A DNA stretch of 64,000 bases from Nitrososphaerota archaeon (GTDB lineage: Archaea; Thermoproteota; EX4484-205; JAAOZP01): assembly GCA_011605725.1 (NCBI GenBank), contig JAAOZP010000009.1:75228-139227 (forward strand), written 5' to 3'. The position numbers and the translations under genes were made by a program. The notes under the pieces were generated by a model. It saw nothing but the letters and a program-made list of their open reading frames with translations, was not told where the DNA came from and ran no database searches. Below, in pieces: positions 46,443-60,285 of the stretch; the first letter of the stretch is position 1; each line of letters starts with the position of its first letter.

Positions 46443-46514
46443 AGACGGTCCACGCGAGGAAATAACAACTATTGCGCAGGCATTATATGCCAAAGCTATA
46501 TTATTAAGCAGACC

Positions 46515-46550
46515 CGCTAGCTCCCCATCGGCACGAGACTATTCTCATGC
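46515..46550 (-). repeat. Decayed direct copy of the thrS 3' end
   Basis: CATCGGCACGA(-)GACTATTCTC at 46526-46546 matches 47259-47280 inside thrS. Confidence 0.8.
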
Positions 46551-46832
46551 TAGATGTGTGCTTCTCAAAATTAAGAGGTCTTGTTCGAAATCTCCAGAAT
46601 CATCTTCATGACTTTTACTTGAAAGACCCTTTGGATCAAATTTCTCTGCTATCACGTATGCTTCTTTAAGCCTGTCTTCATAAAATTCTCTTGAAACTAG
46701 CGCGCGCTCATATTTTTCAACAATGCGATAAGCCTTTGAGCTTCTTCCCGATATAATAATCGTGAATAGAACACTACTATTGACTACTAAAGCAGTCCCT
46801 TCCTTTCGTACTCTTTCTCGACCTCTTTCCAT
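46545..46832 (-). pseudogene. PIN-domain toxin gene with apparent internal deletion
   Basis: LVVNSSVLFTIIISGRSSKAYRIVEKYE | RALVSREFYEDRLKEAYVIAEKFDPKG...; the central region expected in this PIN family is missing at the AGCGCGCGCT motif. Confidence 0.6.
46698..46708 (+). repeat. Junction motif, copy 2 (TAGCGCGCGCT)
   Basis: Direct reading; within deleted PIN gene. Confidence 0.85.
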
Positions 46833-47023
46833 GCCTCATCTCTCGTTTCCTCAAATTTTCTAATTGCTTCATCCAAGTCTACACTTAATCCTTTTTCAAG
46901 GCTCTTTAGAATCAGCTTCTTAGCCATTTTGCGAGCTAGCCCTTCAGCAACCCAGCGAACAATATCGTCTTCAGACACATCCTCTGGTACCTTGATGCTG
47001 ATAACTTTAGCCAAACTTTTCAC
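46787..47023 (-). CDS. VapB-like antitoxin partner
   Basis: MKSLAKVISIKVPEDVSEDDIVRWVAEGLARKMAKKLILKSLEKG; overlaps PIN ORF. Confidence 0.65.
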   Translation of the reverse strand: MKSLAKVISIKVPEDVSEDDIVRWVAEGLARKMAKKLILKSLEKGLSVDLDEAIRKFEETRDEAWKEVEKEYERKGLL

Positions 47024-47171
47024 CAGGATTTATTGTTCTGTTGAACTTCTCCTCAAGGCAACCGGGCTCGAGATTACCTAGGGGCCCGTCCCCTTTCCGA
47101 AGCCTTTAACTTTGACGTTCTTCATGACTAAATTCCGGGGAAATCTAGGTTTTCAGCCCAATTGCTTCTCA

Positions 47172-47225
47172 CGGGTTCAGTCATACGCGCATTAACTCTA
47201 AATAAGGGTGCCGACGTGACTGGGT
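47172..47225 (+). pseudogene. Retropepsin remnant
   Basis: TGSVIRALTLNKGADVTG vs DRSLELQAKLDTGADMTV of the 46071 gene; DNA GGGTGCCGAC at 47206-47215 and 46175-46184. Confidence 0.55.
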
Positions 47226-47231
47226 GCGCGC
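47226..47231. repeat. Junction motif, copy 3 (core GCGCGC only)
   Basis: Between retropepsin remnant and thrS stop. Confidence 0.7.
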
Positions 47232-47237
47232 AAACTT

Positions 47238-49166
47238 TTAGGCATACTGCTGGCTCCTCATCGGCACGAAGACTATTCTCTTGCTCAACTCTCGGGGGAC
47301 GTAGAGTGGTCTAGTCGGCATGCCCTCAACCCTTCTCCGGAAGTATTCTGCAAACTCCTCCAGACTCATCTCCTCAACACGATCCCTCTCAAGAGTAGAC
47401 TCCTCCCTCACGACGATCCTCAGGGTCCCGCTCTGCTCCTCCCTCTCGCCATAGACTATTATGAAAGGTATCCAGCGGGTCTTAGCTTCAGCAACCCTTT
47501 TAGAAACCGTCAGGCTCCTGTCGTCAACACCAACTCTAGCACCCTCCTTCTCAAGCCTTTCAGCAATCCTAATGCTCTGCTCAAGATGTCTCTCAACATC
47601 CACAGGTATTATCCTAACCTGCTCCGGTGAAAGCCAAACCGGAAGCATCGGGGGCTTACCCTCTGAAACCCTGCCGGCAGCGTTCTCAAGCATAGCTGCA
47701 ACAGCCCTTTCAACACTTCCGAACGAAGAAGCATGTATAATGACTCCAACAGGCTTCTTAACACCGTCAGCATCATAATAGCAAATGTTGAACCTCTCCC
47801 CATTCTTCACATCCCACTGAACCGTTGAAATCTGGAGGTTCTCACCGTTCGGGAATATTGCTTGAAACTCGTTTTTGAAAGCATAGTAGTGAGTCATCTC
47901 CCTCATAAGCTTAAAGAAAGCCGGAACCCTCAGCGTCTCAACAATCCTTTTAAAAAGCCACCTGTACTTCTCGTAATACTCCTCAACAACCTCGAAGCCC
48001 AGAACCCAGTTTCCACCAGCAATAACATTATCCATAAGCCCGCCGAAAAGAACGCTCAGCCTCAAATACTCCTCAGAAGCCTGCTCCCCATCCCTGCAGA
48101 ACGCATGCATGTCCGTCATCCAGAAGTTCCTAACTCTCATAAGCCCGGTGAGCTCGCCCTTCTGCTCCTTCCTGAAGCATATTGCCTCTTCATAAACCTT
48201 GACAGGCATATTCCTGTATGTGAACACGGTTTTCTGGATGAATGGGAACGCGCCTGGGTCGCTTGCAAACCTTAAAACCAGTCCATCCTCAACCCTGTAA
48301 TCCCTCTCGTGGAACTCGCCCTGAAGCTGCCTTATCGCCTCGACGTCAGTCCTGTAGAGAAGCGGGTTCTGCATCTTCATAGCCCCCCAGGGTAGGGCAA
48401 TATTCTTGAAAGCGTAATCCATAATAAGGTCTTTCAAGAGAATCCCGCTTGGATACCATTTAAGGTTTCCAGCGTCGCTCTCAGGACAATAGTCGACGAG
48501 CTCGAGCTTCCTCATGTTGACGATGTGGCTGGGCTCCTCTCCTCTTCCAGCCTTCTCCTCAAGCTCGTTCTCCACGAATTGTTTAAGCATCATTCCCCTC
48601 CTGCTCTTTAAGAATGCTTCGCAGCTCCTCCAGTTCTCCTTAGCGACCTCGTACTCCACCCCGTCCTCATCCATAACTATGAACCTGTGGAACTTCTCCT
48701 TCTTCTCAACATGCTTCTCAACAGTCCCCGGCTTAATGCTGCGCGAAAGCTCCGCTAAAGCATGTCCCTTATTGACGAGGGTGAAGCTCTTATACCAGCC
48801 GAAAGCAGCCCTATGCGTTTCAACACCCTTCTCGCTAAGCTTCTCGTGAACCCTCTTAAGAATGCTTATTGCACTCACTGCATCAGCCAGCTCGCTTGAA
48901 AGATGAGCGTAGGGATATAGTAGAACGCGCTCCGCCTTAACAGTTTTGAAGACGTTGAGTATCTCCTGTCCGGCTTGCTCTGCAACGCCTTCAGGATTCT
49001 TCACATCCTCTTTCTCGACGCTCGTAAAAACCACTAGAACGTTCTCAAACCTCCCTGCCCTATTAGACTCATCCAAATCCTCAGCTTTCTCAACAGCTTT
49101 TTCTCTAGCATTATACTCGAACTTCTCGCAGTGGATGAGGAGTATTCTCAAGCCCTCATATTCCAC
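47238..49166 (-). CDS. thrS: Threonyl-tRNA synthetase, archaeal type
   Basis: MRILLIHCEKFEYNAREKAVEKAED-like N-terminal editing domain; VRNFWMTDMHAFCRD; LPVWLSPEQVRIIPV. Confidence 0.95.
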   Translation of the reverse strand: MEYEGLRILLIHCEKFEYNAREKAVEKAEDLDESNRAGRFENVLVVFTSVEKEDVKNPEGVAEQAGQEILNVFKTVKAERVLLYPYAHLSSELADAVSAISILKRVHEKLSEKGVETHRAAFGWYKSFTLVNKGHALAELSRSIKPGTVEKHVEKKEKFHRFIVMDEDGVEYEVAKENWRSCEAFLKSRRGMMLKQFVENELEEKAGRGEEPSHIVNMRKLELVDYCPESDAGNLKWYPSGILLKDLIMDYAFKNIALPWGAMKMQNPLLYRTDVEAIRQLQGEFHERDYRVEDGLVLRFASDPGAFPFIQKTVFTYRNMPVKVYEEAICFRKEQKGELTGLMRVRNFWMTDMHAFCRDGEQASEEYLRLSVLFGGLMDNVIAGGNWVLGFEVVEEYYEKYRWLFKRIVETLRVPAFFKLMREMTHYYAFKNEFQAIFPNGENLQISTVQWDVKNGERFNICYYDADGVKKPVGVIIHASSFGSVERAVAAMLENAAGRVSEGKPPMLPVWLSPEQVRIIPVDVERHLEQSIRIAERLEKEGARVGVDDRSLTVSKRVAEAKTRWIPFIIVYGEREEQSGTLRIVVREESTLERDRVEEMSLEEFAEYFRRRVEGMPTRPLYVPRELSKRIVFVPMRSQQYA

Positions 49167-49799: not shown

Positions 49800-50200
49800 C
49801 TCATGACGATGTTTATCCTTCGGCAACCTAAGCCCTTCAATCACTCTGTTGCGCTCCTCCTTCTGGGTGATGTTCACGCACCACGTTATTCGATACTCGC
49901 CTTTCGCTGTGATATACATATCCTTGGGTTTGGGCTCGGGCTTCACACCGCATGTCTCCTCCGACATTTTCATTTCCTCTTCTAAGAAGGGAGGTTTCGA
50001 TTTCTCTATAATCTCCCATATTTCGGCGCGCTACCGCCTTTGGGAAGTCGATGTAAACAGGCATGTCCCAGCCGGCGACACCGTCAAAGCCTCCTTTTTT
50101 AATGAGCTTCAAGGTTGTTTTAAAAGTCTGGATATTCAGAGGCGGATCTACAGAAGGCTTTCACTGGGTCTTGAAGTGTAGCGTGCGCTTCACGATTAAA
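49800..50200 (-). pseudogene. Decayed gene(s): two fragments joined at GGTAGCGCGCC with frame change
   Basis: Fragment 1 ...TLKLIKKGGFDGVAGWDMPVYIDFPKAV (internal stop upstream); fragment 2 EIWEIIEKSKPPFLEEEMKMSEETCGVKPEPKPKDMYITAKGEYRITWCVNITQKEERNRVIEGLRLPKDKHRHEE* in another frame. Confidence 0.55.
50026..50033 (-). repeat. Junction motif, copy 4 (TAGCGCGC on minus strand)
   Basis: Joins two out-of-frame gene fragments. Confidence 0.8.
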
Positions 50201-56777: not shown

Positions 56778-56951
56778 ATGGTTACCCACGGGAACGTAAC
56801 GCTCGCAGGCAAGGTTCGCAGTCTTACTCCTAAGGTTGCGGCTCGTGAGCGTCCTCCAGATATGCCGCGTAGGAGGATTAGGAGTATTTATCGTAAAAGG
56901 GTTGTTTTGAACAGGCAGCCCGGGCAGATTTGGAAGCAGATGCGTGTTTAG
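56778..56951 (+). CDS. rps30e: Ribosomal protein S30e
   Basis: Own translation MVTHGNVTLAGKVRSLTPKVAARERPPDMPRRRIRSIYRKRVVLNRQPGQIWKQMRV*. Confidence 0.85.
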   Translation: MVTHGNVTLAGKVRSLTPKVAARERPPDMPRRRIRSIYRKRVVLNRQPGQIWKQMRV

Positions 56952-57057: not shown

Positions 57058-57068
57058 TAGCGCGCGCT
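57058..57068 (+). repeat. Junction motif, copy 5 (TAGCGCGCGCT)
   Basis: Left border of the elp3 5' copy. Confidence 0.9.
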
Positions 57069-57071
57069 CGG

Positions 57072-57216
57072 TTTATGAGTAGCTTGCATACTAATTACTT
57101 CCAGTATAGCCTTTTTCTGCTGATACCGCAAATTTGGTAAGCCGTGTAGTTTCCTAAGAGTAAGTGCTGGGATCAGAAAGCCCCAGAACTATTAAGACCG
57201 GGGATTACTGGGCTGC
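57072..57216 (+). repeat. Decayed direct copy of the elp3 promoter plus first codons (parent 58584-58730)
   Basis: Shared exact words in order: TTTATG, TTGCATACTA, GCAAATTT, GTAGTTTCCTAAGAGT, ATTACTGGGCTGC; offset 1508-1514 bp. Confidence 0.9.
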
Positions 57217-57222
57217 GCGCTA
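57215..57222 (-). repeat. Junction motif, copy 6 (TAGCGCGC on minus strand)
   Basis: Right border of the elp3 5' copy. Confidence 0.9.
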
Positions 57223-57255
57223 TGCAAATTTTGCGTTACTTCTTATTTCTCCGTG

Positions 57256-57678
57256 TTAAATATCTTTTATTCTTCTAATGTGCTTCAAGCAGTCTTCCTT
57301 CAATCTTTCTACGAGTTTCTCGTCTGCCGTATACATGTAACTATTTTTCATGATCGCTAGGGAAATATAGGAGGCGTCATAAATTGTTATATTGTTTTTG
57401 AACGCAACCTCTATAGTTTTTTCAGCATATTTGCCTCTGAGGGGGTATAAATCTAAAAAATATGCGTCTAAGGCTTCTGAAACTTCTTTTATCTCGCTTT
57501 CTGAAAAGAGTTTTTTATAATACAACGCATTTAAAACTTCGAAGTTAATGATTTCAGGGGCTATAAGTTTTAATTCTCCTTCTATATACTTATCCCTAAT
57601 CGTCACGGCTTTATCGGAATTCTCTTCTTCAACGAACCACTTCACCACTACGCTTGCATCAACTACTGCTACCGACAT
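57256..57678 (-). CDS. vapC: PIN-domain toxin VapC
   Basis: MSVAVVDASVVVKWFVEEENSDKAV...NNITIYDASYISLAIMKNSYMYTADEKLVERL. Confidence 0.9.
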   Translation of the reverse strand: MSVAVVDASVVVKWFVEEENSDKAVTIRDKYIEGELKLIAPEIINFEVLNALYYKKLFSESEIKEVSEALDAYFLDLYPLRGKYAEKTIEVAFKNNITIYDASYISLAIMKNSYMYTADEKLVERLKEDCLKHIRRIKDI

Positions 57679-57901
57679 GCCGTTCTTCCCTGAACTTTCG
57701 TATGATCTCTTCAGCCCTAGCTTCACCTCTGCTTTTCTTTCTTATTTTTTCGTTTATTAGAACTGCTTTCGCCAAGTTTTTTCTTTTTTCCTCTTCCACC
57801 TTCATTCTTATCGCATTTCTGATGAAATCACTCCAATTAACTTTAATCTCTTTCATCATCTTCTTGGTTTCTTCATCTACCCTTATCGTAATTACTGTCA
57901 T
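57659..57901 (-). CDS. vapB: VapB antitoxin
   Basis: MTVITIRVDEETKKMMKEIKVNWSDFIRNAIRMKVEEEKRKNLAKAV. Confidence 0.88.
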   Translation of the reverse strand: MTVITIRVDEETKKMMKEIKVNWSDFIRNAIRMKVEEEKRKNLAKAVLINEKIRKKSRGEARAEEIIRKFREERHVGSSS

Positions 57902-57966
57902 ACAAGTATTACATGTATAATTTACATATAAACTTTGCTTTTTAGACCTATTCCTGCCAAGAAAGC

Positions 57967-57977
57967 TAGCGCGCGCT
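57967..57977 (+). repeat. Junction motif, copy 7 (TAGCGCGCGCT)
   Basis: Left border of the TnpB remnant. Confidence 0.9.
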
Positions 57978-58336
57978 TTCTCCACAAGCTATCAAGGTTC
58001 TACGTGAACAACTATGATGTGATTTGTGTTGAAAACTTGGCCATAAGCAACATGGTTAGAAACCACATCTTAGCCCAGAAGATACTTGATGCCTCTTGGG
58101 GAAAGTTCCTTCAACTGCTCGAATACAAGGCTGAAAGCGCCGGTGTTCGGGTGGTGAAGGTGAACCCGAGAGGCACATCTAAAGGATTAAGATCTCTTGA
58201 GACTGGATATCGGCAAATAGAATATTGATGAGGGGATGGGGGCGGCCCTGATCCGCCTGCCGGGATGAAGCCCTTACTGGTAGAAATACCAGCAAGCCTC
58301 ATCGTTGAAGCAGGAAGCCAACACCCCTTCTGGTGA
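57967..58336 (+). pseudogene. IS200/IS605-family TnpB (OrfB) 3' remnant
   Basis: RFLHKLSRFYVNNYDVICVENLAISNMVRNHILAQKILDASWGKFLQLLEYKAESAGVRVVKVNPRGTSKG; then frameshifted GGGPDPPAGMKPLLVEIPASLIVEAGSQHPFW*. Confidence 0.88.
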
Positions 58337-58348
58337 GGGTAGCTCACC
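58332..58348. repeat. Hairpin GGTGAG-GGTAG-CTCACC at TnpB remnant 3' end (IS605-like right-end hairpin)
   Basis: 6-bp perfect stem, 5-nt loop, overlapping the remnant's stop codon. Confidence 0.6.
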
Positions 58349-58540
58349 GTGACTCCGAAAACAATAAGGGAATCCGTGAAACTCGTTTTCAAATATCACT
58401 TGTATATGGCTGACGCTATTCAAATAATCTCTGCCAAACAGGCGAATGCGCGTAATCTCGTAACGGGGGATAGGAGGCTTGCCGAGGTATCTATGGTCGA
58501 GGGTTTGAAAAACGCTGTGCTTAGCCTAAACCCGCCCTGA
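58349..58540 (+). pseudogene. C-terminal fragment of PIN-domain protein
   Basis: VKLVFKYHLYMADAIQIISAKQANARNLVTGDRRLAEVS; lacks the N-terminal DxN motif. Confidence 0.7.
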
Positions 58541-58686
58541 AGTGGTTCGGAAGATGGTTAAAACGTGGATTCACAGGTTTCAATTTATGTGCAGTTGCAT
58601 ACTATTTTCCCTCGAGACCTTTCCTGCCCGTTACTGCAAATTTAATAAGTAAGGTAGTTTCCTAAGAGTGAAGCACCGGAATTAGA

Positions 58687-60285
58687 ATGAAGCCCGAGGA
58701 GACTGTTAAGACTGAGAATTACTGGGCTGCCTGCAGAGAAATAGCTGGGATCCTTGCCTCGGAGAAGCATGCTGACAGGAGGGTTGTCCACAGGGTTAAA
58801 CTCAGGGTTTCCTCAAGATTCAGGCTTCCCATGGTTCCCTCTAACAGCGATATTCTTGCAAGTGCCCCGGAGAGGCTTAGGGATAGGCTTAGAAGCATTC
58901 TGATGGTTAAGCCTTCTAGAAGCTCATCCGGGGTCGTGGTTGTTGCAGCGATGGCCATGCCCATGCCCTGTCCCCATGGGAGGTGCTTCTACTGCCCGGG
59001 AGGCCCCTCCAGGAATACTCCTCAGAGCTACACCGGCCTTGAGCCGGCTGCGATGAGGGCTATTCAGAACGATTATGATCCTTTCAAACAGGTTTCCCAG
59101 AGGATTAGGCAGCTTGAGGCTGCTGGGCATGTTGTTCAGAAGGCTGAGCTGATAATAATGGGTGGAACTTTTCCGGCAGCACCTTTAGATTATCAGAAAA
59201 CATTTGTCAAAGGATGTTTCGACGCCCTGAACGGTTTTGTCTCCCAGTCTTTGGAGGAGGCTCATAGGCTTAACGAGTCGTCAAGCATCAGATGCGTAGG
59301 CTTAACTGTTGAGACTAGGCCAGACTATTGCAGAGAGGATCATGTCGATAAAATGCTTAGCATGGGTGTCACTAGAGTTGAGATAGGTGTGCAAACTCTT
59401 AGAGACGATGTTCTTGAAAGAGTTGAGAGGGGACATAGGGTTGGGGATACTGTTAACGCTTTCAGGATTGCTAAGGACGCTGGCTTGAAAATAGTTGCGC
59501 ATATGATGCCCGGGTTACCGGGTATGAGTGTTGAAGACTCTCTGGAAGATTTTAGGAAACTCTACTTCGACGAGAGGTTTAGGCCGGACATGATAAAGAT
59601 ATACCCTACTCTCGTAGTCGAGGGAACAAAGCTTTACGAAGCCTGGATGAGGGGCGATTACAAGCCCCTGGAGGATGAGGAGGCTGCCGAGCTTGTCGCA
59701 AGGATACTGGAGATAACTCCGCCATGGGTGAGGATTATGAGAGTCCAGAGGGATATTCCTGCGAACGCGATTGCAGCAGGGGTTAGGAAAAGCAATCTTA
59801 GAGAAATAGCGCATAGAATTCTCGAATCCCGTGGCTCTAAATGTAGGTGCGTAAGGTGTAGGGAAGTAGGCTTTTCAAAATCTAGAGTCAGCCTGGAGAA
59901 CATTCGTCTCGTCGTTAGGAAATACGGGGCTTCCGGCGGGGTTGAGTACTTTCTGAGCTTTGAAGACTTGGAGAACGATGTCCTGCTCGCATACCTGAGG
60001 CTCAGGAAGCCTTCCCCGTATGCTCACCGGAGAGAGGTAAACGAGGCTTCTTCAATGATAGTGAGAGAACTAAAGGCGCTTGGAAGAGCAATACCCTTAG
60101 GTACTAGAGTAAAAGAGTCTTGGCAGCACAGGGGCTTGGGAGCAATGCTGATGGAGGAGGCTGAAAAAATCGCTGTCGAAAACGGTGCTGAGAAAATACT
60201 CGTGATCTCGGCAGTAGGCGTGAGGGAATACTACAGGAGGCTTGGCTACTTTTTCGACGGCACATACATGGTTAAGAATCTCTAA
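58687..60285 (+). CDS. elp3: Elp3-like radical SAM tRNA uridine acetyltransferase
   Basis: PCPHGRCFYCPGGPSRNTPQSYTGLEPAAMRAIQNDYDPF; C-terminal GNAT HRGLGAMLMEEAEKIA. Confidence 0.96.
   Translation: MKPEETVKTENYWAACREIAGILASEKHADRRVVHRVKLRVSSRFRLPMVPSNSDILASAPERLRDRLRSILMVKPSRSSSGVVVVAAMAMPMPCPHGRCFYCPGGPSRNTPQSYTGLEPAAMRAIQNDYDPFKQVSQRIRQLEAAGHVVQKAELIIMGGTFPAAPLDYQKTFVKGCFDALNGFVSQSLEEAHRLNESSSIRCVGLTVETRPDYCREDHVDKMLSMGVTRVEIGVQTLRDDVLERVERGHRVGDTVNAFRIAKDAGLKIVAHMMPGLPGMSVEDSLEDFRKLYFDERFRPDMIKIYPTLVVEGTKLYEAWMRGDYKPLEDEEAAELVARILEITPPWVRIMRVQRDIPANAIAAGVRKSNLREIAHRILESRGSKCRCVRCREVGFSKSRVSLENIRLVVRKYGASGGVEYFLSFEDLENDVLLAYLRLRKPSPYAHRREVNEASSMIVRELKALGRAIPLGTRVKESWQHRGLGAMLMEEAEKIAVENGAEKILVISAVGVREYYRRLGYFFDGTYMVKNL

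Follow-up and report, generated by a model that had tools for sequence, protein, structure and literature searches.

Upstream of elp3 in a hot-spring archaeon of Candidatus Brockarchaeota lies a decayed local copy of the start of that gene, which is placed between two palindrome joints and is not an element with GCGCGC ends. The palindrome is a bare 12-bp motif, TAGCGCGCGCTA, with the core GCGCGCGC; throughout the genome it lacks a conserved flank or interior element and sits at joints, and the elp3 relic is therefore regarded as a scar-joined local copy. We are highly confident that the palindrome is a lineage-specific marker of joints at deletions, insertions, and fragment duplications. As a whole, the reading in which the elp3 relic and the palindromes are products of error-prone end joining that leaves TAGCGCGCGCTA at the joint appears reasonably probable. 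The window, i.e., the entire stretch of 64,000 nucleotides that was analysed, belongs to a genome (G000) that is 93% complete; the other genomes are drafts.

The rps30e-elp3 interval

The relic is located in an interval with the following features.

56778..56951, + strand: rps30e, conserved left neighbour (Pfam S30, E = 2e-7; synteny)
57058..57068: junction palindrome T1, TAGCGCGCGCT (genome-wide 134 vs. 3 for the control)
57072..57216, + strand: decayed copy of elp3, promoter plus first 14 codons (80.7% identity, z = 34)
57215..57222: junction palindrome T2, GCGCGCTA (short form), bordering the relic on its right
57256..57678, - strand: VapC-type PIN toxin gene (Pfam PIN, E = 3.7e-8)
57659..57901, - strand: VapB-type antitoxin gene (NCBIfam TA_anti_VapB_Sulfo, E = 6e-11, below the curated cut-off)
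57967..57977: junction palindrome T3, TAGCGCGCGCT, at the TnpB truncation point
57977..58228, + strand: IS200/IS605-type TnpB, C-terminal remnant (NF040570, E = 1e-22, profile 273-347 of 389; Pfam TNB domain)
58349..58540, + strand: ancestral vapC, C-terminal remnant (Pfam PIN, E = 0.003; 49-69% amino acid identity to the elp3-adjacent gene in G003-G006)
58584..58730, + strand: source copy, intact elp3 promoter and start (pairwise alignment with the relic)
58687..60285, + strand: elp3, intact, with radical SAM and GNAT domains

The initial annotation proposed a collinear match between the relic and the elp3 start, and pairwise alignment of 57072-57216 with 58584-58730 bears this out: 113 of 140 aligned bases are identical, with a score of 122.5 and z = 34 against shuffles. 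The source span reaches from -103 to +44 relative to the elp3 ATG, and in a whole-genome search elp3 was the sole other copy of the relic sequence (E = 5e-13). The copy was also rightly described as decayed, because its start codon has been lost (AGAATGAAG has become AGAAAG) and small indels are present. The GCGCGC motif is indeed found at both edges: the left motif (57058-57068) is separated by approximately 3 nt from the onset of elp3 homology, and the first GC of the right motif (57215-57222) also forms the last bases of homology. The inverted orientation that had been ascribed to the two motifs is uninformative, since AGCGCGCGCT is its own reverse complement. The third copy of the palindrome (57967-57977) and the genome-wide repetition of the motif lie beyond that initial observation.

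The relic scores 122 against the elp3 start of its own genome and at most 54 against the functional elp3 of any relative. Because its own elp3 matches far better, the copying most likely took place inside its own lineage, as judged from these sequence comparisons. An alignment search detected no elp3 relics in G001, G003, G004, G006, and G007. A separate decayed elp3 promoter and start, covering elp3 -50 to +109, is present in G005 (L034, G005:C3); there it lies between rps30e and elp3, about 950-1100 bp past the rps30e start. This second relic matches the elp3 of G006 and G004 at 82%, compared with 78% for the elp3 of G005 itself, which suggests that the working elp3 of G005 may have been exchanged, or have diverged, once its relic had formed.

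It had been considered that the whole island 57058-58580 might be a single insertion missing from close relatives. Synteny does not support this. The neighbours rps30e and elp3 are kept in G000, G003, G004, G005, and G007, the same-genus genomes in which both are readable, and the sequence between them differs from one to the next; as noted above, that of G005 includes its own decayed elp3 start. In G003-G006, vapC abuts elp3, and because the PIN fragment at 58349-58540 derives from this ancestral vapC, the island is not one insertion. In G003-G006, this interval acts as a hotspot for decaying toxin-antitoxin genes, with content that differs between the species; judged by sequence reading, its genes are putatively HicAB-like, AbrB-PIN-like, and VapBC. 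In the palindrome-free G007, a partial rps30e-like frame (L035 2529-2591, residues 6-26, 57%) precedes the genuine rps30e by approximately 1 kb.

Homology to TnpB sets in at residues 13-15 of its ORF (57971-57977), at profile position 273 of 389. Among the collected loci of G000 and its relatives, no close relative of the remnant was found, and only distant ones occur, in phages and viral contigs. The sequence right behind the remnant (58230-58360) is GC-rich and hairpin-prone, and it may represent what was once the right end of an IS200/IS605 element together with its guide-RNA region. An Rfam scan of the locus gave nothing above the gathering score.

Abundance and distribution of the palindrome

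The degenerate form TAGCGYGYGCT occurs 134 times in G000, compared with 3 occurrences of the reversed control (approximately 45-fold). Among the relatives, the corresponding counts are 64 vs. 1 in G004, 49 vs. 4 in G003, 21 vs. 1 in G005, and 17 vs. 1 in G006, with 3 vs. 2 in G002 and zero matches in G001 and G007. The full palindrome, of which G000 has 28 copies, is confined to five of 61 genomes, all of one genus; it is absent from G001, G002, G007, and 53 further genomes, of which four belong to the same order and the others to the same phylum. The same-genus MAGs stem from several independent projects. A text search of open papers found no prior description of the palindrome and, to our knowledge, no such fixed palindromic joint scar has been described.

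Across 74 sites, no base is conserved beyond the palindrome, and the DNA between motifs is different at every site. The length distribution of GC-rich alternating purine-pyrimidine tracts has its maximum at exactly 8 bp, with 173 tracts compared with 34 expected. Motif variants are transitions (GT, AC), which is in line with decay of the palindrome. In about 151 kb, 41 of 44 motif sites lie outside ORFs, even though ORFs cover 70% of the sequence. The copies are grouped in array-like islands with irregular spacing, and many isolated copies without a neighbour are also present. HIP1 of cyanobacteria is comparable in that a short palindrome is over-represented in one lineage; however, HIP1 occurs within genes and conserved sequence, whereas the Brockarchaeota palindrome is almost never found inside genes or homologous sequence.

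The palindrome at joints

Breakpoints were analysed in homologous-segment lists from whole-genome searches with six stretches, which had been picked as motif-rich or as holding the finding and not by where homology ends. In the complete HSP lists, 16 of 60 motif sites mark where a homologous segment ends and not one is spanned by such a segment, compared with 5.4 ends and 21.9 spanned sites for an offset control at positions 60-300 bp away (p about 1e-7 or lower). At the other 44 sites, no detectable homology reaches the motif on either side. A first version of the test, on the collected loci, gave 17 ends and 1 span (4.1 and 14.1 in the control), but these values are biased because some relative loci had been fetched for ending at a motif. 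A test of all homology ends was weaker (12-16 observed vs. 4-6 expected), since most such ends reflect ordinary divergence.

Several joints can be followed at the level of single bases. At L151:12369, a segment that is intact in G003, G004, and G005 stops at GG and is followed by TAGCGCGCGCTAG and then by a segment from another G003 contig. At L226:1349 of G000, a gene that is contiguous in G006 lacks 225 bp, with GCGCGCGC in place of the deletion. The motif at L152:2595 lies within a 251-bp residue of a region that spans 1.7 kb in three relatives. Two further sites are located in the window.

50026..50033: GCGCGCTA at a deletion joint, which fuses two genes that are 2.2 kb apart in G004
50179..50189: TAGCGTGCGCT between two conserved blocks (breakpoint only approximate)

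The joints thus hold added bases between ends that are non-adjacent in relatives, and deletion joints carry a single palindrome, in genes without a copy in relatives. In one case the palindrome occupies the same orthologous place in two species (L215:1218 in G000 and L139:1501 in G003), so joints can be inherited across species divergence. Taken together with a motif-like promoter sequence in G006, this indicates that not all matches are fresh joints. The joints are not an assembly artefact, because the joined pieces have diverged by up to approximately 25%, the motif recurs in MAGs from independent projects, and one joint is common to G003.

Captured fragments and a vapBC-like insertion

Motif-bounded fragments of host genes measure 44-324 bp and are up to 98% identical to their sources, which carry no motif; at the other extreme, captured pieces diverge from their sources by up to about 25%. 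For example, L151:2798-2866 (69 bp) duplicates a segment of contig C20 with 97% identity, and L184:242-410 (169 bp) duplicates one of C1 with 98%; each has the octamer on both sides, and the source has none. In these two most recent fragments, the flanking GCGCGCGCTA is direct, i.e., in the same orientation on either side. The initial annotation offered, as one origin of the elp3 relic, that the end of a host gene had been captured between GCGCGC motifs; this was correct in outline and has many more cases. The other half of that proposal, an element with GCGCGC termini, is disfavoured by the 74 sites without a conserved flank, by the lack, in 279 kb, of any multi-copy block whose ends are shared, and by the single motif at deletions.

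A vapBC-like insertion lies between two convergent genes (46462-47250 of the window), in an interval that is absent in G003 and G004.

46504..46552: decayed 49-bp duplicate of the 3' terminus of the adjacent gene (direct repeat, about 47245-47289)
47224..47231: motif-like GTGCGCGC, right joint of the insertion

The 49-bp copy sits on the far side of the insertion from its source gene. This copy, the similar relic of G005, and the placement of the elp3 relic, which has the same orientation as elp3 and precedes it by 1.5 kb, together suggest that the insertion of a toxin-antitoxin block is often accompanied by duplication of the adjacent gene end. A motif at 46698-46708 is located inside the PIN-like frame of the insertion and is not accounted for as a joint.

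Alternative explanations

The main rival to error-prone end joining is a staggered cut at a pre-existing palindrome, made by a nuclease or a Cas1-like integrase and followed by fill-in and fragment capture, so that the palindrome would be a target-site duplication and arrays would grow in an integron- or CRISPR-like manner. Such a process would fit the fragments that lie between two copies in array-like islands, as well as the same-orientation GCGCGCGCTA around the two most recent of them (97-98%). It is at odds with the single copy at plain deletion joints in genes that are copy-free in relatives and with the many copies that have no neighbour, and we consider it unlikely. CRISPR arrays and integron cassettes are similar in having a short repeat between unrelated segments in islands, but here the repeat is 8-12 bp long, the segments (44-850 bp) come from the host's own genes, and isolated single copies occur genome-wide. 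Less likely still is an excision footprint of a transposon with the ends TAGCGC...GCGCTA, the intact form of which would end in TAGCGCGC: when the element leaves, its ends fuse, often with adjacent deletions. TA-targeting transposons leave footprints with palindromic symmetry and a terminal TA, just as the motif has TA at both ends; nonetheless, neither a conserved interior nor a longer end was found at the 74 sites, and the 279 kb contain no multi-copy shared-end block. The same results set the motif apart from transposons and MITEs, which have conserved termini and a shared interior. Pack-type elements and MITEs also carry host gene pieces between short inverted motifs, whereas here there is no terminal repeat beyond the palindrome, no shared interior, and only a single motif at deletions.

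It is equally improbable that the locus arose from elp3 by ordinary tandem duplication or by illegitimate recombination facilitated by homology, followed by decay, with the motifs being incidental (binding or fragile sites). The relic precedes elp3, shares its orientation, and is nearest in sequence to its own elp3, which would agree with this, as would the similar relic of G005, which is not tightly motif-bounded, and the 49-bp copy left by the insertion at 46.5 kb. However, the motif is 45-fold enriched, sits at breakpoints genome-wide, and is absent from the sources of captured fragments. Such duplication is thus disfavoured for the motif but possible for the origin of the elp3 copy itself.

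Proposed mechanism

According to the end-joining reading, the elp3 promoter and start would have been copied locally, and error-prone DNA joining would have glued this copy between rps30e and the toxin-antitoxin block. A short self-complementary GC tail would be added to each broken 3' end, the two tails would anneal to each other, and the gaps would be filled and ligated, with the paired tail remaining as a fixed filler. Because identical self-complementary tails anneal, any two ends could be joined in this way, stray genomic fragments included, and the filler would always be the same. The tail-annealing step is put forward tentatively. The elp3 copy itself may have arisen by fill-in at a staggered break or by capture of a stray fragment.

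NHEJ/MMEJ filler and the TdT N-additions of V(D)J joining likewise place extra bases between unrelated ends, with deletions and captured fragments. In those cases the filler is of variable length and sequence or is templated by nearby DNA, whereas the Brockarchaeota core is palindromic and fixed, as is its length. Variable-length N-addition is ruled out by the peak of alternating tracts at 8 bp, and the constant core GCGCGCGC is likewise not that of a variable filler. Searches of 8 incomplete genomes, with positive controls, returned no match for Ku (PF02735) or reverse transcriptase (PF00078), and neither classical NHEJ nor reverse-transcriptase-mediated MMEJ (G2L4-like) is thus indicated in them.

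By analogy, archaeal primase (PriSL) would be the most plausible type of candidate enzyme. The fixed length of the filler and the confinement of the palindrome to one clade would call for a lineage-specific factor, a partner that sets the tail sequence, because primase itself should be present in all archaea. The sharp 8-bp length and fixed sequence count against plain untemplated tailing. As described in the available text of the report on Saccharolobus islandicus, a thermophilic archaeon, PriSL has terminal transfer activity, can anneal strands with no more than two GC pairs in common, and promotes double-strand break repair by GC-microhomology annealing (PMC12019639). This MMEJ resembles the proposed process in its terminal transfer and very short GC annealing at breaks; it differs in that the indels are mostly 1-2 bp and that the same text reports neither a fixed octamer nor gene-fragment capture (PMC12019639). 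The more general proposal, that one Brockarchaeota clade within a genus has an end-joining system that installs a fixed TAGCGCGCGCTA, ligates any ends or stray fragments, and builds islands of shuffled scraps, is a possibility that we rate slightly short of even.

Significance

How DNA breaks are joined in most Ku-less archaea is an open question. If the end-joining reading is true, a fixed joint sequence would be a natural label of end-joining events, so that the deletions, insertions, and fragment captures that a genome has undergone could be reconstructed from its sequence alone. The responsible enzyme could then be traced through its product. Such a process would also help to explain the build-up of toxin-antitoxin islands and decayed gene starts near housekeeping genes such as elp3.
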